Shown piece by piece: positions 22,501-36,182 of a stretch of 42,473 nucleotides of DNA (positions are counted from its first letter, which is position 1; every line of letters begins with the position of its first letter). The position numbers and the translations under genes were made by a program. The stretch lies in the NCBI GenBank assembly GCA_947302205.1, contig CAMYVD010000014.1, positions 1-42,473 of the forward strand, given 5' to 3'. The notes beneath the pieces were generated by a model, which was not told the DNA's origin, did no database searches, and saw only the letters and a list, made by a program, of their open reading frames with translations. Origin of the DNA: an uncultured Bacteroidales bacterium. GTDB lineage: Bacteria > Bacteroidota > Bacteroidia > Bacteroidales > F082.

Positions 22501-24174
22501 GCCTTATGCGAGGAGGATCCCGAGAAGCAATACGACTATTCGCTCAAATTCCCGAACCGCAAGCGTTTGGGCATGAAGATGCATATTCCCGCCAAGGGTG
22601 TGCGTGAGGTGGATTTCATCATCGCCGTTATCGAGGATCGCAATGTGGCACCGGCCAACTACAGCACTGCCGCCATCTACAAGGAGTTCGACGCCGTAAC
22701 CCATTTCTGGGATGAGAAACTCGGCACCATCCAAGTGGAAACGCCTGACAAGTCGCTCAATTACATGTTGAACCGCTGGTACCTCTACCAAGTGTATGCC
22801 TCCCGCCTTTATGCACGCACCGGCTTCTACCAAGTGGGCGGTGCCACTGGCTTCCGCGACCAGCTTCAGGATGTCATGAGTTGCCTCTACGGCGATCCCG
22901 GCTACGCTCGTCGCCAAATCCTCGACCATGCGGCGCACCAGTTCCCTGAAGGCGATGTGCTGCACTGGTGGCACGAGAACCTTAAACTGGGTGCCCGCAC
23001 TACCTTCAGCGACGACTACCTGTGGCTCGTTTATGTCACTTACCAATACATCAAGGTCACCGGCGACCTCAACATTCTCATGGAAGAGGTGCCGTTCTGC
23101 CAGGCCGAGCAGCTCGCTCCGAACGAGACTGAACGCTGCCTGAATTACTCGGCATCCGACACTAAAGTCACGTTGTTCGAACATCTACGCCGGTCCATCA
23201 ACCGCTCCATGGGACGCATCGGCGCCCACGGCTTGCCGCTGATGGGCTGCGGCGACTGGAACGACGGCATGAGCCGCGTCGGCATCGGCAACAAGGGCGA
23301 GAGCGTGTGGGTGGCCTTCTTCCTCTGCGACCTGCTGCCCAAGATGGAAGAACTCACCCAGAAGATGCCTGATGCCGATCTCAGCTACTGCGAAGAGCTG
23401 AGTCAGTTCCGCAACCGCCTCGTCAAGGCTCTGCAAGACAATGCTTGGGACGGTTCCTGGTTCCTCCGCGCCTTCTTCGACAACGGCAACCCCATGGGTT
23501 CACGCAACAACACCGAGTGTCAGATCGACCTTATCTCCCAAGCATGGAGCATACTCACCGATGTCGCAACGCCCGAGCAGAAACAGTCCATCTTCCGAGA
23601 GACTGACAGCCGCTTGGTCAACCGTGCGCATGAGATCATCCAACTTCTCACGCCTCCATTCAAGCACTCCGCCGACGATCCGGGCTACATCATGCAATAT
23701 CCCGAAGGCGTCCGCGAAAACGGTGGCCAGTACACCCACGGCGCCATGTGGTACATCATGGCACAGCTCAAGGAAGGACGCATCGACATGGCTTACTTCC
23801 TCTACTCGCTGATCAACCCGATACACCGCACCCAAACCCTCGCCGATGTGCTGAAATACAAAGTGGAGCCTTACTGCATCGCAGCCGACATCTATAGCAA
23901 CCGTCAGCACCCCGGCCGCGGCGGCTGGACATGGTACACGGGATCAGCATCCTGGGCCTACAAGACCGGTATCGAGAATATCCTCGGCTTCCACAAGGAA
24001 GGCGACACCCTCACCATCGACCCGCATGTACCCACTGACTGGGAAGGATTCACCATCCGTTACCGCTTCGGCAGTAGCACTTACGTGATCCATTACAACA
24101 CGCCGAGCGCCCACATCGCTCCTACTGTCATTCACCTTGTGGATGATGGCAAGGAACATGATGTGATCGCTTAA
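16594..24174 (+). CDS. Cyclic beta-1,2-glucan synthase-like protein (GT84-glucoamylase-like-GH94)
   Basis: 2526 residues, close to the NdvB/ChvB/Cgs family (usually about 2800). Residues 1-250 are soluble and helical. Membrane helices lie at about 263-312, 690-738 and 820-868. Between them is the glycosyltransferase, with D497-T-D499-T and a QxxRW-like RHHRWTRGDWQ (642-652). Residues ~940-1270 are glucoamylase-like (STCDSGNFIACLYTLKGFL). Two beta-sandwich regions follow, and a GH94 phosphorylase-type domain with G2220-DWNDG contains the candidate acid Asp2224. In Brucella and Agrobacterium such proteins start, extend and cyclise beta-1,2-glucan at the inner membrane. The product here is inferred, not shown. 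Last gene of the operon. Confidence 0.88.
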   Translation: MKSTYRIFKDSIKTITDYYLLLVEETKSQRLVGSTNEWVLDNYYMISEQEKVLKIDLQSRSFKKLEGERMKQLESLLREFLTRCHYQIDKGMFFNYLLQEQENSKDYLSYPEVCALLPLMKCILLKELAELCKQLKESNAYHYSPTDSSLANMDKLNVAAQQNLTMMNLFNSLKKMTKLPVSELIDTVSYSEQMLKAEKAGMYDEMYDRTKDDYRAMITRLCKKQRIKEYDFVKALVAKADEKGEHVGWQLFPPKRWNARARWYIWIVVLLTLGLALGFAWWATSKQGFSWLTVLLTIIMWVPMSQIVIDLFNQLLYKIHKPVNTFKIKFKDGLIPKEYATMVIMPTILKNKARTVELLEQLEVYYLSNINRASEGQRLESRPQNIFYTLIGDAAAGPNENMPWDEEVAQAGLAKVEELNKKYGAPIFNFVYRRRAWSDGENCWLGYERKRGAILHFNDLVLGNTTEGERQKRFRCETICQWSEGAVPPIQFIITLDTDTELVLYSAQKLIGAMAHPLNRAQLSPDGKRVNAGYGIMQPRVNVDVEVTNKSRYAQLFAGLGGLDVYTTASFELYQDIFNEGSFCGKGIYDLKVFQKVLKGTFPENLILSHDLIEGCHIRCGLINDLELFDDNPSNYIDDAKRHHRWTRGDWQIISWLFNKVRNEQGVKVKNQVNTIGRWKIFDNLRRSVLSLALMVILFVGFSSLTWFHPAWFLLVALVAVASPIVFFILGQLTTLPRFGKRYHYYATLMRGFRVIIYRSLVQFALLPKEAWMYTDALVRACYRMWFSHKNLLNWITSDEAAKSTKGTLGDYIGKFWFNYVASALLILLYISNPVNTLALLAMLFCVISWCGAPFLMFWLGKKFQDRKRLNTKETEEIRQLAKDTWHFFDSLITEETHYLIPDNYQLNRQKKADYKTSPTNIGYSITSIISASELGFITEEEAIERLGHIIDTVEKLEKWNGHLFNWYHVNTLKALPNFFISTCDSGNFIACLYTLKGFLLEDRSRKEEASSLVERVQKLIEETDFSKLYNPELDVFSIGYDYGAHALLPYHYNNFASEARLTSFLTIAQGDAPYKHWFCLDKTLVQYKGYKGVASWYGTLFEYFMPLIFLPTYKHTLMDETYSFAVRAQRAFIRNVNEALPWGISETAYNELDDAKNYKYHAFGVPYLKFQNTTPDRIVISPYSSLLSISVNDRAVYDNLQRFKSLNMYDNMGFFESYDEDDHVPVLAHYAHHQGMILASLANYLGDHCLQRYFMQEPVFKSMETLLKEKAQVQPYIDLKVTQYKRYKYSKVQTESDARDYDGIATVPEIGVVSNGQYTVLLNDRGSGFSRYRNILINRYRKITADHYGTYLYIRNLRDDKLWCNTYSPLDVMPSQYRVSFASDKISFMRVDGDIETKTEITVLKDYFAEIRRITFTNNSELDVDLEITSYGEVVMAPRDVDAGHRVFNSMKIFSEYDSEHESLIFSKPSQIENEGYDYVVHKLFVDNDGSDNQNNMVSYETSRIKFLGRGGSIRHAHVIDNHRTLSNTVGTTLDPIMSMRRRIHIPAGKAVSAFIITGFARAKEQLFHLVDQYQNAVDVEDAFKKASVFNNMRTDMSLLKGSQMRLYNSISKYILQTATFGNKRQEVLAKNRLSQSGLWRFGISGDHAIVLMEIDDIDKSGFAKEMLRAFEYYKVHGLVLDLVFINDVPGNNHDGLTHFIRNMANTEHLWATHEQTGQVFILNGNEISEEERILLRTVARIDFNDHERIEQQLQNLEAANQQYQDKVEYPVMKPSAQFHVWSTLDFYNQYGGFDNVGRDYVVTNTNTPMPWINVIANPRFGCIVSSTMAGFTFAYNAQQFKLTGWSNDIVRDNASEMLLINKKQFVPATARHGQGFSSFDAQYDELNVKVRVFVATERLEKYYQIKIENKTNEATELQLDMVYKLVMGTTEEKTARYLYSEWDENSNSIFVRNVYHDQYRDTWVQLTALCEEDPEKQYDYSLKFPNRKRLGMKMHIPAKGVREVDFIIAVIEDRNVAPANYSTAAIYKEFDAVTHFWDEKLGTIQVETPDKSLNYMLNRWYLYQVYASRLYARTGFYQVGGATGFRDQLQDVMSCLYGDPGYARRQILDHAAHQFPEGDVLHWWHENLKLGARTTFSDDYLWLVYVTYQYIKVTGDLNILMEEVPFCQAEQLAPNETERCLNYSASDTKVTLFEHLRRSINRSMGRIGAHGLPLMGCGDWNDGMSRVGIGNKGESVWVAFFLCDLLPKMEELTQKMPDADLSYCEELSQFRNRLVKALQDNAWDGSWFLRAFFDNGNPMGSRNNTECQIDLISQAWSILTDVATPEQKQSIFRETDSRLVNRAHEIIQLLTPPFKHSADDPGYIMQYPEGVRENGGQYTHGAMWYIMAQLKEGRIDMAYFLYSLINPIHRTQTLADVLKYKVEPYCIAADIYSNRQHPGRGGWTWYTGSASWAYKTGIENILGFHKEGDTLTIDPHVPTDWEGFTIRYRFGSSTYVIHYNTPSAHIAPTVIHLVDDGKEHDVIA

Positions 24175-24192: not shown

Positions 24193-27120
24193 CTAACTCA
24201 CAACGCTAACGATACTACTGGATTGATTTCCTTCCTGAATCACCTGAATCTGGACGGGAATACTTTCCTTCACGGCTTCCACGTGGCTGATGATGCCCAC
24301 ATGGCGGCCATTGGCGCGATGCAAGGCACGAAGCGTGTTGATGGCATTCGACAGCTCCTGTCCGCTGAGCGAGCCAAAACCCTCATCGATGAACAAGGTA
24401 TCAACGGCAAGGTTCTGCCCGATGTCCGACAGCGCCAGAGCCAAGGCTAACGACACCAAGAAGCTCTCGCCCCCACTCAAGGTGGAGACTGGACGCGTGG
24501 CGTAGCCTTGATAGGCATCCACCAACGACAGGTGCAAGGTACCTTTCACCACCTCAAGCGAATAGCGATGATGCAGTGTCTTCAGATAATGGTTGGCGGA
24601 ATGAAGCAGGTTGCCTAAGATGAAGCTCTGGGCAATCTTTCGGAACAGACTGCCGTCGGCACTGCCGAAATGATCGCAGAGTCGTTTCCATTGGGCATAC
24701 GACTCTGTCAATGCCGTGACGCGTTGCTGCAATGCCTCCTTGTCTTTGCGCTGGGTGGCATCCAACTCCAACGCTTTGGTAAGCTCCACCCCCTCCACCT
24801 TCAAGGCATTGATGCGCTTCTCAATGTCGGCAATCCTCGCATCGAGCAATTCGGGAGTATCGTTCACCTGCAAAACGGCCAAACGCTTTTCAGCATCCTG
24901 CTTTTTCTGCTCAGCCGCCGTCTTCAGTTGACGATTGGTATTCAATCTTGCAAGCAAGTCGTTCCAATAGGCCGAAAGCCGTTCCATGTCTTGCAATTCA
25001 TCCACTTTCAACAAATCCCAGGATGGCAACACCAAGGCTATCCTCGACTGAAGCTCCTTCACTTCCTGAAACGTTGTCTCACACTCTTTCAGCTGACGGT
25101 CAAGTTCTTTGACGCGTTCCTTGTCGTCCATGAACCGCTTGGCTTCTTCCTTCAGTTGATTGGCAAAGGAGGTCATGTCGGCATGCCAATCCACCGACCA
25201 AGTTTGATCCTTGCCAAGCATGGCATCCACCTCCTGCCCCATCTCGCTGACGTTCTTTTCCAACTCGGCGATCGCGGCCAATTGGTTCAGCTGGACCCGC
25301 TTCTCGTTAGTTTGGGTCTCTAAACGCTCCGCTTCCGCAATGCGAAGCCCCAATTGAGAGACTTCGTCTTCTTTCGCCTGCTTCAGAGGCTTCAACCTTT
25401 GCGTCGCTTCAGGCATGGTTTGAACACCCTGCTTTGAGGCATCCGTCAGGAAACGCTGTGTCTCCCGTTGAAGTTCCGCACCGGACTTCGCCAGATTATC
25501 GGCGTTCTGTCCATGTTGGCGTTTCTTGGCTTCAATATTGGCTTTCAATCCATTCAACTGATTCGTCAGGGCTTCCACTTCCGACTTCTGGCGCTCGTAT
25601 TTGGACAGGTTTTCCAAATAGGCTTGATCCAACTCCGATTCCACGGGCAGTGCCTGTTGCAGCGTCTGTTGGCAAACGGGACACACACAGCCTTCCTTTA
25701 AGGTGGCGCGGATTTGTTTCGACCATTGGCCAATGGTTTGGGCACTCAGGTTTTTGAGGGTCTCCAGCGAAGCAAGTAACTCCTTCCCTGCCTTCAGCTT
25801 CTCCTGATGGACAGGCATGGCCTGCTCAAGCTGTTCCACTTCGCCCCAAAGGTCTTTGTTTTGTCGTTCAAGTTCTTCTTGTTGCCTGCTCTGACTGGTC
25901 AGGACATCCAATCGGGTCAGCAGGTTCTGAAGTTCATTGACCGTCTTGACGAGCGTGTCTTTTTGGGTACGCAAGCCAGGCAGATTCAAGGCTTTCAGCC
26001 GTTCCTCATCGGCTTTCAGTGCCGCCTCCAATTCGTTGAAAGCAACCTTAGGAGCTTCCTGACGTTTCAGTTGGATCTGCTGTTGTGCCTTGTAAATCGA
26101 CCGCAGCAGTTGGAGTATGGCTTGGCTCTGTTCATAGACACCGGTCTTCTTTTCTTGGCTTTCAATCTTATGATGGAGGGACTCAAGCTGAGTCTTCATG
26201 CTTTGCATCCGCAGTTCCAAGCCTTGTTTGCCTTTCAGTCCAACTTCATAGTTAGGTTTCAATCGGGTCTCCACCTCTTGGTCCAGCCGTTGGATTTCGG
26301 CCTGCCGTTCTTCCATCTCTTTCAGGTCACGGCGAGCCTCCACTGCTTGTTCCCACTCCTTGACCAGAACGGCATTTTCAGTAACAATGGCTTGATTTCT
26401 GGCGGTTTTCGCCTGAATTTCTTCTTCGCTCAACAAAGTGATACCACTGAGTTTTTCCGACTCAACTTTCAGGCTTTCGCGTCGCTCTTTGGTACGTTCA
26501 AAAATCCTTGCGCCGATCTTTGAGAAGATCTCAGTTCCAGTAATCTTTTCCAAGATGGCGGCTTTCTCGCTCTCGTCGCTTTTCAGGAACTTGGTAAACT
26601 CACCCTGAGCCAATATGGTAGTGCGGCAAAATTGTTCAAAATCGAGGCCGACAGCTTTTTCAACGGCATTACGGATGCCCTTGTCCTTGTTGGTGCTGCC
26701 AACCAATAGTGCTCCCGAAGTCAGGTTATGCAGGGTCCAAACATCCGAGCTGAGCGCAGAAGTGGCTTTTTTCAAGGCGCCACGCTGCACATGCCATTCC
26801 GCTTCATAGCGATTGCCGTCCGTGCCGTCAAACACCAATCGGGCACTTGCCTCACCGGTGTTTTGGCGCATCAGTTGCCTAGGGTCGCGACCCGAAAGGT
26901 TGTCATCGTTGGCATCGATCCTGTCACGGGTGCCTACATTGACACGAGGCGTGGTGCCATATAAGGCCAGGCAGATGGCATCGAGAATGGTGGATTTGCC
27001 AGCGCCGATCTTGCCGGAGATCAGGAACAAGTCGCTACTCTTCAAGGGCTCGGCATCGAAGTCGATGAAGGCTTCCTCAATGGAAGCAATGTTATGGATA
27101 TACAACTGTTTAATCCTCAT
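24193..27120 (-). CDS. sbcC: SbcC-like ATPase of the SbcCD nuclease
   Basis: 975 residues with the full SMC/Rad50-like layout. Walker A is G36-KIGAGKST; long coiled coils run from about 180 to 830; the zinc hook is C480-PVC483 near the middle. The C-terminal ATPase lobe has the ABC signature LSGGESFLVSLALALALSD and Walker B LFIDEGFGSL. With SbcD it cleaves DNA hairpins and double-strand ends. It overlaps sbcD by 11 bp and is the last gene of a nine-gene minus-strand set. It converges on the glucan-synthase gene, with 18 bp between stops and no visible terminator. Confidence 0.95.
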   Translation of the reverse strand: MRIKQLYIHNIASIEEAFIDFDAEPLKSSDLFLISGKIGAGKSTILDAICLALYGTTPRVNVGTRDRIDANDDNLSGRDPRQLMRQNTGEASARLVFDGTDGNRYEAEWHVQRGALKKATSALSSDVWTLHNLTSGALLVGSTNKDKGIRNAVEKAVGLDFEQFCRTTILAQGEFTKFLKSDESEKAAILEKITGTEIFSKIGARIFERTKERRESLKVESEKLSGITLLSEEEIQAKTARNQAIVTENAVLVKEWEQAVEARRDLKEMEERQAEIQRLDQEVETRLKPNYEVGLKGKQGLELRMQSMKTQLESLHHKIESQEKKTGVYEQSQAILQLLRSIYKAQQQIQLKRQEAPKVAFNELEAALKADEERLKALNLPGLRTQKDTLVKTVNELQNLLTRLDVLTSQSRQQEELERQNKDLWGEVEQLEQAMPVHQEKLKAGKELLASLETLKNLSAQTIGQWSKQIRATLKEGCVCPVCQQTLQQALPVESELDQAYLENLSKYERQKSEVEALTNQLNGLKANIEAKKRQHGQNADNLAKSGAELQRETQRFLTDASKQGVQTMPEATQRLKPLKQAKEDEVSQLGLRIAEAERLETQTNEKRVQLNQLAAIAELEKNVSEMGQEVDAMLGKDQTWSVDWHADMTSFANQLKEEAKRFMDDKERVKELDRQLKECETTFQEVKELQSRIALVLPSWDLLKVDELQDMERLSAYWNDLLARLNTNRQLKTAAEQKKQDAEKRLAVLQVNDTPELLDARIADIEKRINALKVEGVELTKALELDATQRKDKEALQQRVTALTESYAQWKRLCDHFGSADGSLFRKIAQSFILGNLLHSANHYLKTLHHRYSLEVVKGTLHLSLVDAYQGYATRPVSTLSGGESFLVSLALALALSDIGQNLAVDTLFIDEGFGSLSGQELSNAINTLRALHRANGRHVGIISHVEAVKESIPVQIQVIQEGNQSSSIVSVVS

Positions 27121-28288
27121 CGTCCAATCCTTTCATCACTTCGTTAAACAGCACCATCAATTCCTCATCACAGGCTTCACCTTTGGATTCAAGATACAGC
27201 TTGGCCACTTCCGCAGGGGTCATCTGTTGGAACTCCGTGGTCGTCATCACCTGAAAACCGTTGTTTTGATTCGGCTGCGACTTGCGTTTCGCATTGATCA
27301 GACAGAAACGGCATTGCTTTCGTGAAGCAATCTGCTGAGCCTCCGCATTCGCCATCACTGGCAAATGGTCCTCAACCAACACATTCAGACGGATATAGGC
27401 TGGGATATCGTCAGGGAAAGCCTCAAACTGTTGTCTCACCGTCTCCCATTCCCCAAAGCCCTCCAGGGGCAGGTTCACCAACGGACGCGGGTTGTCCATC
27501 GCCATGGTGCGCACCAATGGACTATCGCCATGATGTGCCAATTCCACGATGCTCACGCTATGTTCCTTGTCACCCATAGCCTCATCGAAGCTGACGGGGA
27601 TTGGGGTACCGCAATAGCGTGCCCTATGGTTGGCGCCATGGACGAATTGTATGCGATGGATATGGCCAAGGGCGATGTAATCATAGCCTTCGCCAAACAC
27701 CTCGGCACTTTGGCAGTCGATGCCGCCGACCATGGCCTCCGTCGCATTTTCGTGTCCCTTGAAATCGCCACCCGTAATGGCTAAATGAGCCATCAGCACC
27801 ACAGGGAGTTGCGTCGTACGATTCATCTCGTCCACTTGCGCTGAGAGACGCCTGAAGAATTCTTCAGGCATGTTGCGATCGGCAGCGTATGGCACCGCCA
27901 CCACATAGCCTTTGTCCCCTACCTTAATGATATAGTCGTTGGGATCAGCCTCTCGGCTCACGTTGCCCAGCATGCTCACGTTCATCCGTTCCCAAGGGGA
28001 ATGGAAAATCATCAGCTTACTGCTGCTGTCATGGTTTCCAGCAATGCAAATGATCCGCATCGTCGGACAGGCTTCATGAATCTTGGTCAGGGCATCCGAA
28101 AACAGGGTTTGCACTGATGACGATGGCTGGGTGCTATCATACACGTCACCCGCCAAAAGAAACACATCAGGTTGTTCCTCACGCACCAACGCCGCCATCT
28201 GGTCGAGCATGGAAAATTGCTCTTCCCTGCGGTCATAGTTGTACAACACATGACCCAGATGCCAGTCGCTGGTGTGCAAGATCTTCAT
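27110..28288 (-). CDS. sbcD: SbcD-like exonuclease subunit
   Basis: 392 residues. I use the ATG at 28288 rather than the in-frame TTG one codon earlier: it overlaps the upstream stop as TGATG and gives the canonical MKILHTSDWHLGH. Metallophosphoesterase motifs are D8-W-H10, AGDVYDST and AGNHDSSSK, followed by ALGHIHRIQ. These residues hold two metal ions for the Mre11-type nuclease. The C-terminal ~120 residues are the cap/SbcC-binding part. It is translationally coupled to both neighbours. Confidence 0.95.
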   Translation of the reverse strand: MKILHTSDWHLGHVLYNYDRREEQFSMLDQMAALVREEQPDVFLLAGDVYDSTQPSSSVQTLFSDALTKIHEACPTMRIICIAGNHDSSSKLMIFHSPWERMNVSMLGNVSREADPNDYIIKVGDKGYVVAVPYAADRNMPEEFFRRLSAQVDEMNRTTQLPVVLMAHLAITGGDFKGHENATEAMVGGIDCQSAEVFGEGYDYIALGHIHRIQFVHGANHRARYCGTPIPVSFDEAMGDKEHSVSIVELAHHGDSPLVRTMAMDNPRPLVNLPLEGFGEWETVRQQFEAFPDDIPAYIRLNVLVEDHLPVMANAEAQQIASRKQCRFCLINAKRKSQPNQNNGFQVMTTTEFQQMTPAEVAKLYLESKGEACDEELMVLFNEVMKGLDDED

Positions 28289-28812
28289 CAATGCATCTCG
28301 TAGGTGTTAACAATGCCAATGGCTTCTTCCAACACCATCTTGACGATTGCGCTGTCTTTCAAACGATAAGTCAGCTCCACCGATTTGTAACCGCCTCTTG
28401 GCACCTTACCTTTGACGGTGATGACCACATGGCGCATGCCATCTTTCTCCGTAACGGTGGTCTCTGCATTATTATCGATAGCAGCCTGCTCCCAGTTGCC
28501 CGAGATGCAGTTCAGCAATGTGGCGCGCTGCAGTCTGACCATCGGGACTTTTGAAGCGTCCAAAATGGTCTGAGTGCCATTGAGGTTCATCGACACCGTA
28601 TTGCCTGAGATGTAAAAGAACTCACCAAGAGGATCAGTGTAGTCCATCGTCAGGTGATCAACGCCGTCAAAACTCAAGTGGCCTGCCATCTCAGTGGTCT
28701 TTCCCGAGACCTTTACCACTCGTGTTTGGGAAAAATCAGCATCATATTGCTTTTGTGCGAAAGCCACTACTGAGAGCAGCATCGCCACGATCATCAATCC
28801 AAAACGTCTCAT
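28288..28812 (-). CDS. LolA-like outer-membrane lipoprotein carrier family protein
   Basis: 174 residues. The signal peptide is MRRFGLMIVAMLLSVVAFAQ. The mature part begins YDADFSQTRVVKVSGKTTEMAG and continues GHLSFDGVDHLTMDYTDPLGEF, the beta pattern of the LolA/LolB half-barrel (GxLxFxxPxxLxxxYxxP). LolA-fold proteins chaperone acylated molecules across the periplasm. It is probably not the housekeeping LolA, because it is wired into an operon with an acyl carrier protein and an MMPL exporter; LolA paralogues with MMPL exporters are known from aryl-polyene-type clusters. Its start overlaps the ACP stop as ATGA. Confidence 0.75.
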   Translation of the reverse strand: MRRFGLMIVAMLLSVVAFAQKQYDADFSQTRVVKVSGKTTEMAGHLSFDGVDHLTMDYTDPLGEFFYISGNTVSMNLNGTQTILDASKVPMVRLQRATLLNCISGNWEQAAIDNNAETTVTEKDGMRHVVITVKGKVPRGGYKSVELTYRLKDSAIVKMVLEEAIGIVNTYEMH

Positions 28813-29036
28813 TTTTTCAAGCTATCTAAAAAAGCGACCACGTCGCCAACGGTTTCAAACTTGGCCAATTCCTGATCGGGAATCACAATGCCGTAATCGT
28901 CTTCAAGGCGCATTAAAAGTTGGAGGATATCCACCGAATCGGCGCCGAGGTCTTTTTTGATTTGCGCATCAAGGGTCACCTTTTCCGGTGCAACTCTAAG
29001 TTGACGCGCTAGGATTTCTTTTACTTGTTCGTACAT
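28809..29036 (-). CDS. Acyl carrier protein
   Basis: 75 residues, acidic and helical, with the phosphopantetheine site LGADSVDILQLL; Ser34 is the attachment residue, and the Ile/Leu run replaces the DSLDTVEL of housekeeping AcpP. It is not next to fabF or fabD as the fatty-acid-synthesis acpP usually is. It sits one base after plsX and overlaps the LolA-like gene by 4 bp. This suggests a dedicated carrier for the operon's own acyl chemistry, loaded by PlsX or another donor, but it could still serve general lipid synthesis. Confidence 0.92.
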   Translation of the reverse strand: MYEQVKEILARQLRVAPEKVTLDAQIKKDLGADSVDILQLLMRLEDDYGIVIPDQELAKFETVGDVVAFLDSLKK

Positions 29037-29037
29037 G

Positions 29038-30057
29038 TCAATATTCGTAATGTTCGTATTTCATGATTATTTCTTCCATTTTCGATGACAATGAACTGAC
29101 CTCCATCTTGTAGGCTTGTTCAATGCACTTCTCCACTGCCACCGCCTTGCTTGAGCCGTGTCCCTTGACCACCGTTTTCGAAGTTCCCAGCAACACGCTG
29201 CCGCCATAGTTCTGGTAGTTCATGAACTCCTTCTCGTCGGCGAACATCTTCTTCATCAGGAAGGCACCCATCTTGTACAAAGTCCTCGAATAGATGTCTT
29301 TCTTCAGCTTCTTCAACAGTTCAAGAGCGGTTCCCTCCGTGGTCTTCACCAGCACGTTGCCCGAGAAGCCGTCGCACACCACCACGTCGTAGCTGCCTGA
29401 CAGCAAATCGCGGCTCTCCATATTGCCCACAAAATGGATTTCGGAGGTCTCTTGTAACAAAATGTATGCCTTTTGTCGTATCTCGTCACCTTTTTCTGCT
29501 TCTTTTCCTACATTCAGCAATGCAACTCTCGGTTTTTCAATGCCATAGACTTGTTGCATATAAAGGCTCGACATGATGGCGAACTGGCGCAGATGTTCCG
29601 GAGTCACCTCCACGTTGGCACCACTGTCGCAGACACCCACGATGCCACCGTCCATGGTTGGCAGGATGGGACAAAATGCCGGACGGATCACGCCTTTCAC
29701 GCGACCGATACGGGTCAAGGCCGCCGCCACCAAGGCGCCAGTGGAGCCCGTGCTCACCATGGCGTTGATGTCTTCACGGTCACGCAACAACCGCACAGCC
29801 TTGATCATTGAGCTTTCCTTTTTCAGGCGGATCACGTCGATAGGACGCTCATCGCAACCGATCACCTCAGGAGCATGCACAATCTCCACCCGCTCCGCAT
29901 CGTAGGTTTTTCCAGCGAGATAGTCCTGAATGGTTTTCTCGTCTCCTGTAAAAATCAGATACAAATCCGGGGTCTTGGCCAATGCAGCCAAAGCACCGTC
30001 AATATTGGCTTGCGGGCTATGGTCACCCCCGAAACAGTCAATCAATATCTTAATCAT
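29038..30057 (-). CDS. plsX: Phosphate acyltransferase PlsX
   Basis: 339 residues, the normal length. The start IKILIDCFGGDHSPQANIDGA matches PlsX (usually DAMGGD). MVSTGSTGALVAAALTRIGRVKGV, RPAFCPILPT, VCDSGANVEVTPEHLRQFA, ALLNVGKEAEKG and VCDGFSGNVLVKTTEG are all classical blocks. PlsX interconverts acyl-ACP and acyl phosphate. In many Bacteroidales plsX lies in rpmF-plsX-fabH; here it follows the fatty acid kinase parts and precedes an ACP. The 1-bp gaps on both sides indicate coupling. Confidence 0.95.
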   Translation of the reverse strand: MIKILIDCFGGDHSPQANIDGALAALAKTPDLYLIFTGDEKTIQDYLAGKTYDAERVEIVHAPEVIGCDERPIDVIRLKKESSMIKAVRLLRDREDINAMVSTGSTGALVAAALTRIGRVKGVIRPAFCPILPTMDGGIVGVCDSGANVEVTPEHLRQFAIMSSLYMQQVYGIEKPRVALLNVGKEAEKGDEIRQKAYILLQETSEIHFVGNMESRDLLSGSYDVVVCDGFSGNVLVKTTEGTALELLKKLKKDIYSRTLYKMGAFLMKKMFADEKEFMNYQNYGGSVLLGTSKTVVKGHGSSKAVAVEKCIEQAYKMEVSSLSSKMEEIIMKYEHYEY

Positions 30058-30058
30058 A

Positions 30059-31186
30059 TCACACTAATTTCTTGACAAAACAACGGTAACGCTTGACCAC
30101 TTGTGAATCGAAACGTTTCCACAGGTTCAAGATGGGATAATTGTCCTCTAGGTTAAGGTTGGTATCGGCATACTCGATATTCTTCCGCTGAAGCATGTCG
30201 ATCAAGCCCATGCATACCACGACACTGATGCCACGGTTGAACCAAATGGGATCAACGCCCACCAGGCAAAGGTCAAGAACCCTGGGGCTCCTCATGGTTT
30301 TCAGCACCCTATACAGTGCTCCCGGGGTCAAATGACCGCCTGATTTACGAACGGCATCGGCGATTCCGGGGAATGCCAAGCCGAAACACACCATCTTGTC
30401 GTTCTCATCCAGGATGACCGCCGCATTTTCCACGTGGATGACCAACTTGAAGTTCTCGATCATCATCTTTTTCATGCCTTCAGTGAAAGGCACCGTGCCG
30501 TAAAGCATGGCATACGACTTATCCAGCAGTTCAAAGATGCCGTCTGCATATTTATTGAGGAAATCCTTGGTATTCTTGGACTTTCCGATATGTAGGTTGT
30601 ATCGCTTCAACACAAATTCGGCCAACCGATGCATCTCGCCGTCATAATCCTTGGGAACACGGATGTTACTACCCGTCCAATCTACTTCTTTCTGGTAACC
30701 GTAGTTCTCCAGATAGGTCTGATAGTAAGGATAATTGTAATTTTCCTCGAAGGTAGCCGGCTGGTCAAAACCATCAATCAACAAGCCTTCACGTTCCAAG
30801 TCGGAGAAGCCCAAGGGGCCAACAATCTCTTCCATGCCTTGCTGGAGGGTCCAGTCTTCCAAGGTCTTTAACAAAGCCCTGGCCACTTCCTCGTCCTCAA
30901 TGACATCGAACTTCGACAAGCGTACCCGCTTTTGGTTGTACTTCTGGTTGGCCGACTTCTGGATGATTCCGGAGATGCGTCCAGCCATCACGCCATCCTT
31001 ATAGGCGTTGAAATAGACACTTTCGCAAATGTCGTTATACACGAAATCCTTGCTAAAGATCTTCTTTTCATCCATGTACAACGGCGGAGCGTAATACGGA
31101 TTGCCTTTATAGAGTTTCAACTGAAAGTTGAGGAACTCCTTCTGTTGTTTTTTGGTTTTAACCTGCTCAACTGTAATCATAATCAT
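30059..31186 (-). CDS. GNAT-fold acyltransferase-like protein
   Basis: 375 residues from the ATG at 31186, chosen because it forms an ATGA overlap with the upstream DegV stop; an ATG at 31180 is possible. The N-terminus KKQQKEFLNFQLKLYKGNPY, then YAPPLYMDEKKIF, the core SVYFNAYKDGVMAGRISGII and EEIVGPLGFSDLEREGLLIDG resemble a long family that I recall being annotated as N-acetyltransferase or acyl-CoA N-acyltransferase. It has no signal peptide or membrane helix. Between a fatty acid kinase and plsX-acp it could transfer an acyl chain to an amine, but no substrate can be read from it. A housekeeping or non-lipid role remains possible. Confidence 0.65.
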   Translation of the reverse strand: MIMITVEQVKTKKQQKEFLNFQLKLYKGNPYYAPPLYMDEKKIFSKDFVYNDICESVYFNAYKDGVMAGRISGIIQKSANQKYNQKRVRLSKFDVIEDEEVARALLKTLEDWTLQQGMEEIVGPLGFSDLEREGLLIDGFDQPATFEENYNYPYYQTYLENYGYQKEVDWTGSNIRVPKDYDGEMHRLAEFVLKRYNLHIGKSKNTKDFLNKYADGIFELLDKSYAMLYGTVPFTEGMKKMMIENFKLVIHVENAAVILDENDKMVCFGLAFPGIADAVRKSGGHLTPGALYRVLKTMRSPRVLDLCLVGVDPIWFNRGISVVVCMGLIDMLQRKNIEYADTNLNLEDNYPILNLWKRFDSQVVKRYRCFVKKLV

Positions 31187-32052
31187 CTGTGTTTTGCGTG
31201 GAAGCAGATGCCGATGGCATTGGGACCACAATGGCTGCCGATGGTCGGATTGACTGCATTGACCATGATGTTCAAATCGTCACCGAACTTCTCCTTTAGC
31301 AAGCGCTTGGCTTCCTCAACAATCTCGGGACAATCGGTATGGCCGATCAACACACGGTGGGCTTTCACGTCCTCACCGAGTTCCTCCACATACTGCACCA
31401 AACGGGCAAGGGCCTTGGCACGACCTTTCTCCTTGCCGATCGAGACCATTTTACCCTCGTCGTTGAGGTAAATGATGGGACGGATGCCGATGAGGCCTCC
31501 CATCGTGGCAGCCAAGCCACTCACACGGCCGCTGCGGCGGAAGAATTTCAGATCATCGGCGAAGAAATACATGGGGAACTTCGGCACTTCAACCTTAGCC
31601 CATTCCAAAATCTCTTCAGCGGTCTTGCCGGCTTTATACATATCGGCACATTCAAGCACGATGTTGTAGGACAAAGCGGTAATGCCCAAAGTGTCAATAT
31701 GGTAGAACTTCCTTTCGGGATATTTTGCCAAAAGCTTGTCCACCGCCTGCCCCATGATGGTAAAGGTATTGGACGTGCCTGACGAGAAATGTACATAAAG
31801 GATGTCGTTTCCTGCCTGAAACTCTGGCTCGAAGTACTGGCAATAAGCTTCTTCGCTCATGGCGCTGGTGGTCGGCATGGTGCCGGCACGCAGCATATCA
31901 TAAAACTTGTGGTCATCGAATTCTTCAAAGTCTACGTATGGGTAAACCACTTGGTCACCTATGGTGTATGGCATGCTGATCATCTTGATGCCATATTCGG
32001 CACACTCCTTGGGAGTGATGTCGCAATCCGTATCGCTAAAAAATACTAACAT
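31183..32052 (-). CDS. DegV family fatty-acid-binding protein (FakB-like)
   Basis: 289 residues, the usual DegV length. The first strand FFSDTDCDITPKECAEYGI, the lipid-contact PTTSAMSEEAYCQYF (Thr62-Ser63), FSSGTSNTF (~89-96), DDLKFFRRSGRVSGL and the last HCGPNAIGICF correspond to the conserved blocks around the fatty-acid carboxylate in DegV/FakB. It would present a bound fatty acid to FakA for phosphorylation. It overlaps fakA by 7 bp. The first block reads SDTDCD rather than the more common TDSTxD. Confidence 0.88.
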   Translation of the reverse strand: MLVFFSDTDCDITPKECAEYGIKMISMPYTIGDQVVYPYVDFEEFDDHKFYDMLRAGTMPTTSAMSEEAYCQYFEPEFQAGNDILYVHFSSGTSNTFTIMGQAVDKLLAKYPERKFYHIDTLGITALSYNIVLECADMYKAGKTAEEILEWAKVEVPKFPMYFFADDLKFFRRSGRVSGLAATMGGLIGIRPIIYLNDEGKMVSIGKEKGRAKALARLVQYVEELGEDVKAHRVLIGHTDCPEIVEEAKRLLKEKFGDDLNIMVNAVNPTIGSHCGPNAIGICFHAKHR

Positions 32053-33686
32053 AATACAAAGATATAATCATAAACCGGCTGTGTGCCGTTGTTCAACATA
32101 ATTTCCAAATTCTTGTAAGTCGCTGTCAAGTCGGCAACGAGTTTTTCCGCTTCCTCTTCAGGAACGTCCTGGCCAAAGAACACCAACAGCACGTCGCGTG
32201 AGGCGGCATCAAGGCGTTCGCAAAGGGCCTTGGCAGCCTCCAAACGGTTTTCGGAAGCCGAAAGGATCCTTTTGCCGCAGTAACCAACGAAATTGCCCGC
32301 ATGCACCGTCACGCCCTCCCCTTCCGCATCGCGGATGGCCGTTGACACCATGCCCGTACTCACGGATTGCATGATTTCGTTTACGCTTTCAACGACTGCT
32401 TCGATGTCATTCAATGAACGGTCCACCGAACCTACGCCATAATAGCCCTCGCCAATGGTGGTTGAAGGCATCACGCGGATGTCGGCCTTATCGTACAGCC
32501 CAGCCGCTTGGTCAGCCGCCATCTTGATGTTCGAGTTGTTCGGGAACACCAAGATATGCTGGGCGTTGATGCGTGCAAAGGCATCCAGAAAGTCCTGGGT
32601 GGAGGGATTCATGGTCTGACCGCCGGCAATCACCTCGTCAGTGCCCAATTCCCGGAAGGCGTTGATCAATCCCTCACCTGAAGCCACGGCCACAATGCCG
32701 TATTGCTGTTGCGGCTTTTTGAACGAGGCGTTGTTTTGATTCACCGACTGGTGGTGCTGCAACGACATGTTTTCAATCTTGATGGTCAGGAACTCGCCAT
32801 ATTGCTGCATTTCGTTGAGGATGACTCCAGGGGTAAAGGTATGCACATGCACCTTCACGATGCTGCCTTCGCGGAAAGCCACCACCGACTCTCCCACCTG
32901 ATTCAGGTAATCGATGATCACCTGTTCGTCGAAGGTCTCCAAATCGATCTTCGAGCGCATCAGTCGGAGCAGGAACTCGGTGCAATAGCCAAACTCAAGG
33001 GTGCTGTTTTCATCAAACTTGTCAAGCTCCACTACTGGTGCTGACGGCGTTGACACAGGGGCCAACTCCTCCTCGCTGATACGGCCGCAGAGGGCGTCGT
33101 TCATGCCTTGGAAGATGCAGAGTAGGCCGGCACCGCCGCTGTCGACCACGCCAGCATCTTTCAACACCGGAAGCAGTTCGGGCGTATGGTCGAGTGAGAT
33201 TTGCATGGCGCTCAATAGCGTCTCAAAATAAAGGTTAAGGTCGGCTGAGGCATCCGCACCAGCGGCACCTTCACGAAGCACTGTGATGATGGTGCCTTCC
33301 ACGGGAACGGGAACGGCCTTGTAGGCTTCAGTGACAGCCGATGACATGGCCTTGGCGAAGGCTTGGGTATCAGCTACAATCACGCCTTGCAAGCCCTTGG
33401 CCAATCCTGCGAAAATGCGTGACAGGATAACGCCCGAGTTGCCTCTGGCACCCAACAACATGCCTGAAGAGGCTGCCGAGGAGATCTCTGAAAGGGTTCC
33501 TAAATTGTCCTTGAGGGCAGCACAACCCGCCTTCAAGGTCATATGCATATTGTCGCCCGTGTCGCCATCAGGGATGGGAAACACGTTCAAATCGTTGACG
33601 GTGTTCTTTTCTTTTCCCAATGCCACCGCCCCTTGACGAAGCATGGCGGCAAAGGTCAAGCTATCTAATTCTCCTGTTTTTTCCAT
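32046..33686 (-). CDS. fakA: Fatty acid kinase FakA (DAK2/DhaL domain)
   Basis: 546 residues, the same size as Staphylococcus FakA. The N-terminal DhaL domain has NVFPIPDGDTGDNM with the Mg-ATP aspartates Asp40, Asp42 and Asp45, then GARGNSGVILSRIFAGLAKG. The middle and C-terminal FakA domains follow (VKVHVHTFTPGVILNEM, ILVFPNNSNI, VMPSTTIGEGY). FakA phosphorylates the FakB-bound fatty acid to acyl phosphate. A dihydroxyacetone kinase is excluded because there is no DhaK and the protein has the long FakA C-terminus. It overlaps the exporter gene by 22 bp and degV by 7 bp. Confidence 0.9.
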   Translation of the reverse strand: MEKTGELDSLTFAAMLRQGAVALGKEKNTVNDLNVFPIPDGDTGDNMHMTLKAGCAALKDNLGTLSEISSAASSGMLLGARGNSGVILSRIFAGLAKGLQGVIVADTQAFAKAMSSAVTEAYKAVPVPVEGTIITVLREGAAGADASADLNLYFETLLSAMQISLDHTPELLPVLKDAGVVDSGGAGLLCIFQGMNDALCGRISEEELAPVSTPSAPVVELDKFDENSTLEFGYCTEFLLRLMRSKIDLETFDEQVIIDYLNQVGESVVAFREGSIVKVHVHTFTPGVILNEMQQYGEFLTIKIENMSLQHHQSVNQNNASFKKPQQQYGIVAVASGEGLINAFRELGTDEVIAGGQTMNPSTQDFLDAFARINAQHILVFPNNSNIKMAADQAAGLYDKADIRVMPSTTIGEGYYGVGSVDRSLNDIEAVVESVNEIMQSVSTGMVSTAIRDAEGEGVTVHAGNFVGYCGKRILSASENRLEAAKALCERLDAASRDVLLVFFGQDVPEEEAEKLVADLTATYKNLEIMLNNGTQPVYDYIFVLC

Positions 33687-36151
33687 GTTTTTTTCGAAAG
33701 TACACTACGCTTGTAAGCCGGGATCTTCATCAACTGCCTGAACGCAAACGGCTGAAGCGAGTAGGATATCATTATGGTTGAAGCCATTCCAATGAGGGTG
33801 CTGAGACCGATGGACTGGATGGCGGGATGAACTGCGAAGAGCAAGGACGAAATCACAATAACCAAGATGATGGCTGAGAAGAAAATGGCCACCTTATGCC
33901 AGGTGAGCACGTCACGGTTGCCCGTTCGAGCCTCCGAGAGCAAGCCTTCCGTGATGAAGATGCTGTAGTCCACGCCGATTCCGAAGATGAACGTGGAGAT
34001 GATGATGTTGATCAGGTTGAATTCCAAACCAATCAAGGCCATATAGCCCTGCACCATGAACCAACTGACCACCATCGGGATGAACGACAGCAAAGCCGTG
34101 AGGATATTTCGGAACGAAACCAGCAGGATGATCAGCACGAAGATGGATGAAATCCAAACCGCGATATCGAAGTCGTCATGGATCACCTCCACCATGTCCT
34201 TGCAGTAGTAGAACGGGTCAAGGATGAAAGTCCTGGGATTCTTGATCACGGCAGCGGTAATGGGATCCTTATCCTCGAAAATCATGGCCACATCGGTAAA
34301 CACCATGTATTGTCCGTCGGCATTGCATTCGATGAAGTTGCCGAGCAGATTCTCAGGAACGATGCCACTCTCCAACAACGAAGCGGGTTCGTACTCGGAT
34401 TCGATGAGCCACTGGAAATCAGCAAACATACTGGGATCGAGGCCAAGTTGCTTGGCATTGGTCTCCACCAGCGTCATGGTTTCTTGCTTGCGTTCTTCGG
34501 TCCAGAAAGCGTTCCAGGCTTCAATGCGGCGTTCCTGCTCCTCTTGGGTGATAAACAGTTTTGAAATCAAATCGGTATAGGAATGGACGATGCCGGTCTG
34601 CTGCAACGAGTCGAGAATGACCATCAACGACTGGTTGGCAAGGATGGCCTCATCGAAATCGGTAGAGACCGTGGCATAGTACTGGTGCGCAAAACCGTCA
34701 TTGTTTTTGGCATTGAACAGGGCTTCGCTCTCCAGCTCTCCAGGGGAGTTGTAATCCAGGTTACGCAAGTCGCTGTCGAACTTCACCTTCGGTGAGAAAA
34801 CGATGCCCACCGCGATAATGGCCACCATCAGAACAAGGAACCACTTCCTGCGGTCGTAAGGCAACGAGTTGAGTCGGGTGATGTAACGGAACACCACGCC
34901 CCCGCTGTCGGCATGACGCTTGGGCAAGAAGTGAGGTAGGAAGATCAAGGCGAACAATGTGCTTCCTATCAATGCCAACGAGGCGAAAAGCCCGAAGTCG
35001 CGCAGTAAATCACTATCGGTGAGCAGCAAGCTACAGAAAGCGCCTACGGTGGTCAGACATCCCAAAAACACCGGCGTGGACTCATCCAGCAGCAGTTTCT
35101 CAGGATCGCCCACAAAGAAATGGTGGATCATCACATGGAGGCAATAGCTGATGGCCACGCCCAACACGATGGCGCCGAGGCCCAAGGCCATGAGTGACAT
35201 CTCGCCTCTGTACCAGTAAATCACAGCCAACGAGAAGACCGTGCCGTAAACAATGGGCAGCAACATCTTCCAAAGGAAGGAAAAACTCTTGAAGCATAGG
35301 CCTAAGATGATCAATATCAAGATCAGGGAAATACCCACTGTAACCACCAGGTCGTTTTTGATACGGCTGGCATTCGACACACTGCCGATAGGGTCGCCAT
35401 GCACCAATACCTTTACTTCCGGATGAAGCGCCTCAAACTCTTGCTTTGCATTGGTCATCATCTTCGAGAAGTTTTCTGCCGACATGGAGTCAAGGGTCCT
35501 GAAAGCCGGTGCCAGATAAGCGATGGCAACCGTACTGTCGGCGCAGAAGAAATGGCCTTCGATCATGTTATAGCCACCGATGGCACCTTCCAGCAGGTCA
35601 CCGATGATCGCATCCTTCATGTTTAAGGGGTCGTAGGCCACCATCTGAAGCACCTCACCAGTCTCATCTTCCATCAACAAGTCATAATTGGCCTGCATCT
35701 GAGCGGCAGCTACCTCGGGTTCCAACACTTTTGCAATCTCTTGATAAGCGGATGTGTCCACAAACGAAGGAATGTGTTCCAGCACGAAATCCAAGGCGTT
35801 GAGTGCCATCTCCGGCTCCATCTTGTACAGGATGTTTGAGATGTAATGCGTGGCGGAGTCCTTTTCGAAAAGCATCTCCATAAACTCATCCGTCAGTGCG
35901 GCAATCTCCTCGGGAGCAAGGTTTTCGTTGGAAGAGGTGACTTGTATGAAGACCTTGTCCTTCAAGCCAATGGAACCAAAGGCCAACTGACTTTCCACGC
36001 TGGAGGTAGGCAACAATTTGGTGATATCCTCCTCATAATGAAGTTGTAAGCCAAAAAAAACGAACACCAAAAATGAAATACCCATGACCAGGTACATCAA
36101 GCGTTGGTGGTTTTTAAAGAAACGATAAATTGGGATAAAAATCTTATGCAT
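33665..36151 (-). CDS. MMPL/RND-type exporter
   Basis: 828 residues. Two similar halves each consist of one membrane helix (first: YLVMGISFLVFVFFGLQL), a ~200-residue periplasmic loop and five further helices. VVTVGISLILILIILGLCF and the ALGLGAIVLGVAISYCLHVM segment, and in the second half FIFGIGVDYSIFITEG, match the MMPL/sterol-sensing-type core; the D of GVDYS is the usual proton-relay position. Family members export lipids, glycolipids or pigments and are found with ACP, LolA and acyltransferases. It is the first gene of the nine-gene operon, behind a full -7 box at 36175-36182. Confidence 0.9.
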   Translation of the reverse strand: MHKIFIPIYRFFKNHQRLMYLVMGISFLVFVFFGLQLHYEEDITKLLPTSSVESQLAFGSIGLKDKVFIQVTSSNENLAPEEIAALTDEFMEMLFEKDSATHYISNILYKMEPEMALNALDFVLEHIPSFVDTSAYQEIAKVLEPEVAAAQMQANYDLLMEDETGEVLQMVAYDPLNMKDAIIGDLLEGAIGGYNMIEGHFFCADSTVAIAYLAPAFRTLDSMSAENFSKMMTNAKQEFEALHPEVKVLVHGDPIGSVSNASRIKNDLVVTVGISLILILIILGLCFKSFSFLWKMLLPIVYGTVFSLAVIYWYRGEMSLMALGLGAIVLGVAISYCLHVMIHHFFVGDPEKLLLDESTPVFLGCLTTVGAFCSLLLTDSDLLRDFGLFASLALIGSTLFALIFLPHFLPKRHADSGGVVFRYITRLNSLPYDRRKWFLVLMVAIIAVGIVFSPKVKFDSDLRNLDYNSPGELESEALFNAKNNDGFAHQYYATVSTDFDEAILANQSLMVILDSLQQTGIVHSYTDLISKLFITQEEQERRIEAWNAFWTEERKQETMTLVETNAKQLGLDPSMFADFQWLIESEYEPASLLESGIVPENLLGNFIECNADGQYMVFTDVAMIFEDKDPITAAVIKNPRTFILDPFYYCKDMVEVIHDDFDIAVWISSIFVLIILLVSFRNILTALLSFIPMVVSWFMVQGYMALIGLEFNLINIIISTFIFGIGVDYSIFITEGLLSEARTGNRDVLTWHKVAIFFSAIILVIVISSLLFAVHPAIQSIGLSTLIGMASTIMISYSLQPFAFRQLMKIPAYKRSVLSKKTWKKQEN

Positions 36152-36174: not shown

Positions 36175-36182
36175 CAAAGATA
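36175..36182 (-). promoter_or_regulatory. -7 box for the exporter/fatty-acid-kinase operon
   Basis: Minus-strand TATCTTTG is an exact TAnnTTTG match, with the expected start site near 36170 and a leader of about 20 nt. It is the only good promoter-like element seen between 36201 and 24193, so all nine genes could come from it. Confidence 0.6.

Follow-up and report, generated by a model that had tools for sequence, protein, structure and literature searches.

A stretch of 42,473 nucleotides from an uncultured Bacteroidales bacterium (F082; contig CAMYVD010000014.1 of assembly GCA_947302205.1, a genome 88.6% complete), referred to here as the window, carries genes for a fatty acid kinase, the acyltransferase PlsX and an acyl carrier protein (ACP) on either side of a tandem-GNAT protein, and the question that it poses is what these genes make together. 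We consider it reasonably probable that the operon is a fatty-acid-scavenging ceramide synthase module, in which free fatty acid would be converted to acyl phosphate and then to acyl-ACP for the N-acylation of a sphingoid base. The evidence lies in the content and order of the genes, the families to which FakA, PlsX and the ACP belong, the homology of the GNAT protein to Escherichia coli YghO, its co-occurrence with serine palmitoyltransferase (SPT), and the nesting of the Bacteroidales copies among those of Clostridia.

The operon and its ceramide-synthase-like enzyme

Seven genes of the minus strand are involved. An MMPL/RND-type exporter (828 aa; 33665..36151) is followed by FakA, the catalytic subunit of fatty acid kinase (546 aa; 32046..33686), a DegV-family protein that is FakB by position (289 aa; 31183..32052), the tandem-GNAT protein GNAT1 (375 aa; 30059..31186), PlsX, an acyl-ACP:phosphate acyltransferase (339 aa; 29038..30057), the ACP (75 aa; 28809..29036) and a protein with a predicted LolA fold (174 aa; 28288..28812). 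The start of GNAT1 is taken at the ATG at 31186, its longest reading frame opening at a TTG at 31231. The six junctions measure, in this order, -22, -7, -4, +1, +1 and -4 bp, and both places and overlaps are exactly those given in the initial annotation of this DNA, which also reported a -7 box ahead of the operon; a promoter-like sequence, TATCTTTG (36175..36182, minus strand), does lie 23 bp upstream of the MMPL ATG, and we read it as a putative -7 box on the assumption that the motif is TAnnTTTG.

Sequence comparison makes GNAT1 a homologue of the bacterial ceramide synthase (bCerS, CerS or Aca; YghO/CC_1154). It aligns with YghO over its full length at 27% identity (383 columns, E 4e-39), and 22 of the 31 columns that are invariant across 30 rows of the GNAT family are identical in YghO. 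The comparison with bCerS was made through YghO, and CC_1154 is placed by the accessible part of PMC9386255, where yghO is named as the counterpart of this Caulobacter ceramide N-acyltransferase; in the E. coli record the neighbours of yghO are a class I/II PLP enzyme, an ACP, an epimerase and a fatty acyl-AMP ligase. Searches of Pfam, NCBIfam and PDB sequences gave no match over cut-off for GNAT1, so that its former label of 'GNAT-like' stands for a tandem-GNAT protein but not for any Pfam family, and its identity therefore rests on gene context and on YghO. No solved bacterial ceramide synthase appears in the VIA-align list, which excludes nothing.

FakA exceeds the cut-off of TIGR03599 (521.1 bits against 396.1), has the Dak2, middle and C-terminal domains, and aligns over residues 10-543 with chain A of 7w7h (E 3e-111); it falls under the NCBI equivalog FakA_VfrB (NF038248, 428.6 against 975) and is therefore named by the wider family (YloV) only. 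The DegV protein scores 201.8 bits for PF02645 (cut-off 27) and resembles solved FakB proteins such as 6dke, its score for the equivalog FakB1 (NF038249) being 89 against 350, and the role of FakB is assigned to it by its position beside FakA. PlsX (TIGR00182, 337.2 bits against 243.4) and the ACP (TIGR00517, 80.5 against 70.45, with the serine of its DS motif within GADS) both exceed their cut-offs. That this ACP is dedicated to the operon, as had been proposed, agrees with the finding of two further stand-alone ACP genes elsewhere in the genome, on contigs C2 (by eye) and C9 (FabF scanned), beside FabF-type ketosynthases. The C9 run (L094:8975-12714) consists of a FabG-like gene, ACP, FabZ, FabF and a FabH-like gene, with FabZ and FabF coming from profile scans and the remaining genes identified by eye; contig C10 (L005-L008) carries two open reading frames of ~2420 aa that resemble nonribosomal peptide synthetases, with two phosphopantetheine domains apiece.

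At the two ends of the operon the assignments are broader. The exporter exceeds the cut-off of PF03176 (62.1 bits against 20.5), and its best PDB sequence matches, the RND transporter 5khn and HpnN 6wu0, cover residues 662-803 only; because it scores 109.1 for the HpnN hopanoid transporter model TIGR03480 (cut-off 751.85), we claim only the MMPL superfamily. The LolA-like protein scores below the cut-offs of the LolA models in Pfam (22.1 against 23.6) and NCBIfam (20.2 against 112), and a LolA-like half-barrel is present in its predicted fold.

These families suggest the following route. The DegV protein, as FakB, would hold a free fatty acid, FakA would phosphorylate it to acyl phosphate, and PlsX would shift the acyl chain from the phosphate onto the operon's own ACP; GNAT1 would then take the chain off acyl-ACP and attach it to the amino group of a long-chain base, 3-ketosphinganine or sphinganine, with (keto)dihydroceramide as the product. 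The base would be made by the host's pair of SPT and ketosphinganine reductase, which lies on another contig, or would be recovered from recycled sphingolipid. Bacteroidales have an outer membrane, and the position of their genes makes the MMPL and LolA-fold proteins the likely route by which the product would, perhaps, reach it, so that the operon also names a candidate exporter for its lipid. The initial annotation had proposed the loading of free fatty acid onto a dedicated carrier and the transfer of the chain by the GNAT protein; this remains the best reading, but the homology to ceramide synthase had been missed. A ceramide-synthase-like enzyme set among a kinase, PlsX and an ACP of its own points to acyl-ACP from scavenged fat, and the acyl donor of the bacterial ceramide synthase is left open in the literature passages on bCerS available to us. 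If the proposal is correct, free fatty acids of the gut would be linked directly to the second chain of sphingolipids, and gut bacterial sphingolipids modulate the host according to the accessible parts of PMC10056535 and PMC10865984.

Distribution and origin of the cassette

Similar loci were found by exact GNAT peptides, and the 78 recovered therefore lean to the nearer relatives of the GNAT. In 49 of the 55 with Bacteroidales or Bacteroidia titles the core FakA-DegV-GNAT-PlsX-ACP is complete and in order, with GNAT identity down to 54%; three of the remaining six are interrupted by contig ends (L017, L025 and L059), L024 is without FakA and DegV matches, L042 is without an ACP match, and in L086 PlsX lies on the opposite strand. 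Conservation of the gene order across genomes had been put forward as a check in the initial annotation, and the core order proves to be kept far beyond close relatives. An MMPL gene stands just upstream in 36 of the 49 complete loci (44 had more than 2.6 kb of sequence there), and a LolA gene adjoins the ACP gene on the same strand in 20 and on the opposite strand in 11.

The other 23 loci bear titles such as Clostridia, Lachnospiraceae and Erysipelotrichaceae, and the five-gene core is complete in two of them. Two more have all but the ACP, two have DegV-GNAT-PlsX (differently ordered in L066), two FakA-DegV-GNAT, one DegV-GNAT-ACP, four DegV-GNAT and two GNAT-ACP, with GNAT alone in eight, some of these partial loci being truncated by contig ends. 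The same five genes occur in a different order, FakA-PlsX-DegV-GNAT-ACP, at the Clostridial locus L133, and at L029 a GNAT-ACP pair stands behind dnaN-recF-gyrB-gyrA and one unknown gene, an order of replication genes that we take to be typical of Firmicutes. No MMPL or LolA match was found at any of the 23, and Bacteroidales alone were seen to have the two proteins beside the cassette.

The trees and the distribution of the genes within the Bacteroidota are in keeping with a foreign origin. In the PlsX tree (55 hand-chosen rows, with the PlsX of L133 as a long branch) the copies from Bacteroidales operons make up a single group within the Clostridial PlsX, and 13 further PlsX from the window's order fall elsewhere; one row labelled Clostridial, L026, is Bacteroidales-titled and groups with the Bacteroidales operons, the label and not the tree being wrong. 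In the GNAT tree, which omitted 37 loci as near-duplicates or repeats and admitted only rows of 330 or more aligned residues that scored above 90 bits, the Bacteroidales GNAT1 sequences are nested inside those of Firmicutes, with one operon row, L046, separated from the remaining Bacteroidales. Each of the two trees was quickly built and carries a single support value. Among 198 genomes of the window's order PlsX is found in 113, and besides the window's only that of genome G497 (73% identical) is of the operon type, the others being 32-42% identical. FakA matches occur in 32 of these genomes and are full-length only in the window and G497; in the remaining 30 the match is chiefly N-terminal (two weak pieces in G544), and the partial FakA of other Bacteroidota show 26-39% identity to the window's, in nearly every case along the N-terminal part alone. 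Members of the GNAT family are present in 147 of the 198, and among the rows listed none but the window's own exceeds 39% identity to GNAT1. Of 247 Bacteroidota sampled, 203 have PlsX and a single one, the window's own genome, has a FakA that stands by itself and exceeds the cut-off of TIGR03599. Among the N-terminal FakA matches of other Bacteroidota are proteins of ~600 aa in which Dak2, FakA middle and DegV domains are joined in one chain (L208:2890-4731, L209:4713-6524 and L210:5994-7808; three of three scanned).

No second PlsX was found in the window's genome at its 88.6% completeness, and with no other copy found the gene might on its face be thought to serve housekeeping rather than a dedicated role. 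The initial annotation had made a second plsX a test of its proposal, and on this part the window's genome itself is unfavourable; but a genome of the same genus (99% complete) yielded no PlsX at E 1e-20 and no FakA, its best GNAT relative being 32% identical, and the PlsX of the window clusters with those of Clostridia. The idea that it is the housekeeping copy of the lineage is countered by these two findings, and probably it is not. Transfer from Clostridia into some Bacteroidales, a direction that we infer, is the best explanation of the PlsX, FakA and GNAT distributions; the five-gene cassette would have come from Clostridia, and the MMPL and LolA-fold genes would have been added at its two ends in Bacteroidales. 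The initial annotation, which knew of no described fusion of FakAB with an export module in a Gram-negative operon, had not seen that the core itself did not originate in Gram-negatives: it is common to Clostridia and apparently derived from them.

The description of a coupled seven-gene operon holds for all six junctions, but coupling does not end at the LolA-like gene. Its stop overlaps the start of sbcD (27110..28291, minus strand; TIGR00619, 158.5 bits against 77.65) by 4 bp, and sbcD and sbcC overlap by 11 bp, so transcription probably runs past the seven genes. The sbcD gene is probably co-transcribed with the lipid operon without being a member of the pathway; sbcD and sbcC together (24193-28291) are translationally coupled to it and functionally unrelated, and the same downstream neighbours are found at L010. 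Beyond them the plus strand carries an open reading frame of 2526 aa (16594-24174).

Sphingolipid genes and the choice of acceptor

The window's genome contains three members of the GNAT family, GNAT1, GNAT2 and GNAT3. On contig C3 an AMP-ligase-ACP-GNAT2 run faces a ketosphinganine-reductase-like gene and an SPT that exceeds its equivalog cut-off (NF047600, 660.2 against 640); the AMP-ligase exceeds no NCBIfam cut-off, and GNAT2 is 32% identical to GNAT1. Near relatives have GNAT3-SPT-reductase in five of five regions (in L161 also with ligase and ACP behind) and AMP-ligase-ACP-GNAT2 facing reductase-SPT in three of three, all of them regions chosen because GNAT and SPT matches already stood close. 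Two of the three paralogue lines are therefore physically tied to sphingolipid backbone genes, and the third, GNAT1, goes with Fak, PlsX and ACP. On contig C21 (L092:344-7140) GNAT3, two unknown genes and an MMPL gene of 1077 aa form one run, in which this acyltransferase family is again paired with an MMPL exporter.

The window's own genome and those of 49 of the 78 loci were searched for SPT, at a threshold of at least 44% identity to the window's; the alignment query for GNAT searches combined 26 GNAT1-type with four GNAT2 rows and therefore finds the wider family. Of 28 Bacteroidales-titled GNAT1 genomes 24 contain an SPT or a fusion of ligase, ACP and SPT, and of 22 with other titles 15 do (11 SPT, four fusions). 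Thirteen of these 15 have a single GNAT-family row, and in them GNAT1 must therefore act if ceramide is made by this route. The reductase lies directly beside SPT in eight of 15 regions retrieved from these genomes, one of the other seven regions ending at SPT; in the Clostridial L103 SPT, reductase and GNAT stand in a row, and the cassette of L133 lies 10.5 kb from SPT-reductase on one contig. The fusions with an SPT-like part are proteins of 1039-1124 aa (L108:5711-8944, L109:6429-9671, L110:8614-11733, L111:1873-5019 and L112:3721-7095), four of them Clostridiales- or Lachnospiraceae-titled and one Bacteroidales-titled; three of the five were scanned with Pfam, giving AMP-binding, ACP and aminotransferase domains, and two are known from BLAST matches to ligase and SPT only.

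We have also examined 200 genomes of a Clostridial order around G019, counting GNAT matches at E 1e-100 or better and stand-alone SPT of at least 460 bits. Both are present in 41, GNAT only in 25, SPT only in 13 and neither in 121 (odds ratio 15.3, Fisher p 1.5e-14; leaving out the centre genome gives 40/25/13/121), and among the 14 holders of the closest GNATs ten have SPT (p 4e-4), p-values that are too small since the genomes are related and kinship is uncorrected. An SPT at least 59% identical to one Clostridial SPT, which is itself ~50% identical to the window's, occurs in 54 of the 200, and the Clostridial SPT is therefore a type of its own, which speaks against contamination of metagenome-assembled genomes as its source; for the GNAT, the setting of L029 bears on the same question.

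Besides this kinship, a number of findings weigh against a ceramide synthase module. Identity of 27% to YghO leaves the substrate of GNAT1 unfixed, and GNAT1 may use another acceptor because the host has two more family members, one of them in a sphingolipid cluster; in the host the Fak operon has no SPT next to it, and the reductase-like gene beside SPT on C3 scores best for 3-ketosphinganine reductase (NF049977) at 332.3, below the cut-off of 400. Six Clostridial SPT and one reductase likewise score best to sphingolipid models and below the curated cut-offs. No SPT, or only matches of 33-36% at the level of Kbl/BioF, were found in four of the 28 Bacteroidales-titled genomes (G007, G010, G036, G049) and seven of the 22 others (G018, G027, G038, G041, G045, G046, G048), and 25 of the 66 strong GNAT holders of the Clostridial order have no SPT. 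With fusions counted as SPT the table for that order becomes 41/25/22/112 and the odds ratio 8.3, a strong GNAT being found in none of the nine fusion-only genomes. FakA, DegV, PlsX or ACP lie near the GNAT in 12 of 39 regions of the order and none of them does in 27 (40 regions had been hand-picked from GNAT matches, that of L156 falling short of its GNAT), and the wider GNAT family therefore works without the Fak set. Lastly, G497 has FakA and PlsX of the operon type and no GNAT above 35%, with both genes near contig ends.

Such findings lend some weight to the possibility that GNAT1 uses the same acyl-ACP on another amine, so that the lipid exported by the MMPL and LolA-fold proteins would be N-acylated but no sphingolipid (an amino-acid lipid, a sulfonolipid base or an N-acyl amine). 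The tandem GNAT fold serves many amines, GNAT1 is a third paralogue where the host already has GNAT2 in its sphingolipid cluster, and the 11 genomes in which SPT was not found would be accommodated; but the 13 SPT-bearing genomes with no further family member, and the linkage to SPT and reductase at L103 and L133 in the near outgroup of the GNAT1 clade, lead us to regard it as unlikely. Still less probable, in our estimation, is ordinary phospholipid scavenging, with FakAB and PlsX supplying PlsY or elongation and the GNAT a bystander. FakAB-PlsX is the known Gram-positive route for exogenous fatty acids, as far as the available parts of PMC10146087 and PMC9083066 go, and the sole PlsX found in the genome would suit it. 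The GNAT, however, sits between FakB and PlsX in both phyla, and in Firmicutes it also stands with DegV or ACP alone (L045, L064, L069, L070, L075); the same-genus genome does without any PlsX or FakA that could be found, and the operon's ACP is one of several, separate from those beside FabF-type genes. That this is a locus for export of a flexirubin-like pigment or polyene through LolA and MMPL, holding lipid enzymes by chance, is very improbable. Of the NCBIfam models flexirubin LolA2 does fit the LolA-like protein best (46.8, below the cut-off of 125), but Pfam and NCBIfam scans of the seven genes revealed neither a ketosynthase nor a dehydratase or ammonia-lyase, and the Clostridial core occurs without MMPL or LolA matches.

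If the operon is indeed a ceramide synthase module, the place of the Fak cassette away from spt, and its presence in some genomes in which no spt could be found, would suit a salvage of the fatty acid and the base alike. We therefore offer, more tentatively and at somewhat under even chances, the wider picture of a bacterial ceramide salvage, in which a synthase driven by FakAB, PlsX and ACP would join free fatty acids to recycled or dietary bases, with a Clostridial origin, recipients among gut and rumen Bacteroidales and dedicated export by MMPL and LolA-fold proteins. In the same picture Clostridia could, by gene content, make their own sphingolipids, partly by way of the ligase-ACP-SPT fusions, and the ceramide synthase proposal for the operon itself predicts sphingolipids in Clostridia. 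Spt has been extended to 40 phyla in PMC11334938, the main text of which does not name Firmicutes, Bacillota or Clostridia; by title or abstract start we found no open-licence paper linking Fak to sphingolipid synthesis and, among the matches listed, none on sphingolipids made by Clostridia.

Comparison with known systems

The operon resembles two known systems. FakAB is described as a Gram-positive system (PMC11271967); the window's FakA, DegV and PlsX are of the type that serves FakA-FakB-PlsX scavenging in Firmicutes, but the known use there is phospholipid, whereas the window has its own ACP, a ceramide-synthase-like enzyme and an exporter, in a member of the Bacteroidales. The fusions of other Bacteroidota share the Dak2, middle and DegV domains of the window's FakA-FakB pair but hold them in a single chain.

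The second likeness is to the Rhodobacterial aasR-acpR-spt-cerR-cerS set, with its supply of acyl-ACP, a specialised ACP and an N-acyltransferase homologous to GNAT1. Its Caulobacter members are CC_1165, 1163, 1162, 1164 and 1154, and in E. coli the yghO region corresponds, as far as the source is available; in the accessible part of PMC11324152 one acyl-ACP synthetase activates the acid, and acyl-ACP is the substrate of Spt. The window operon, unlike this set, would use a kinase and PlsX, and the gene of its own is that for the N-acyltransferase. The AMP-ligase-ACP-GNAT2 cluster on C3 has the same layout of activation, ACP and N-acyltransferase, but with a ligase in place of kinase and PlsX, no adjoining exporter, and sphingolipid backbone genes adjacent. 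The ligase and ACP beside GNAT2 and in Rhodobacteria seem to perform the task that Fak and PlsX would have in the window operon.

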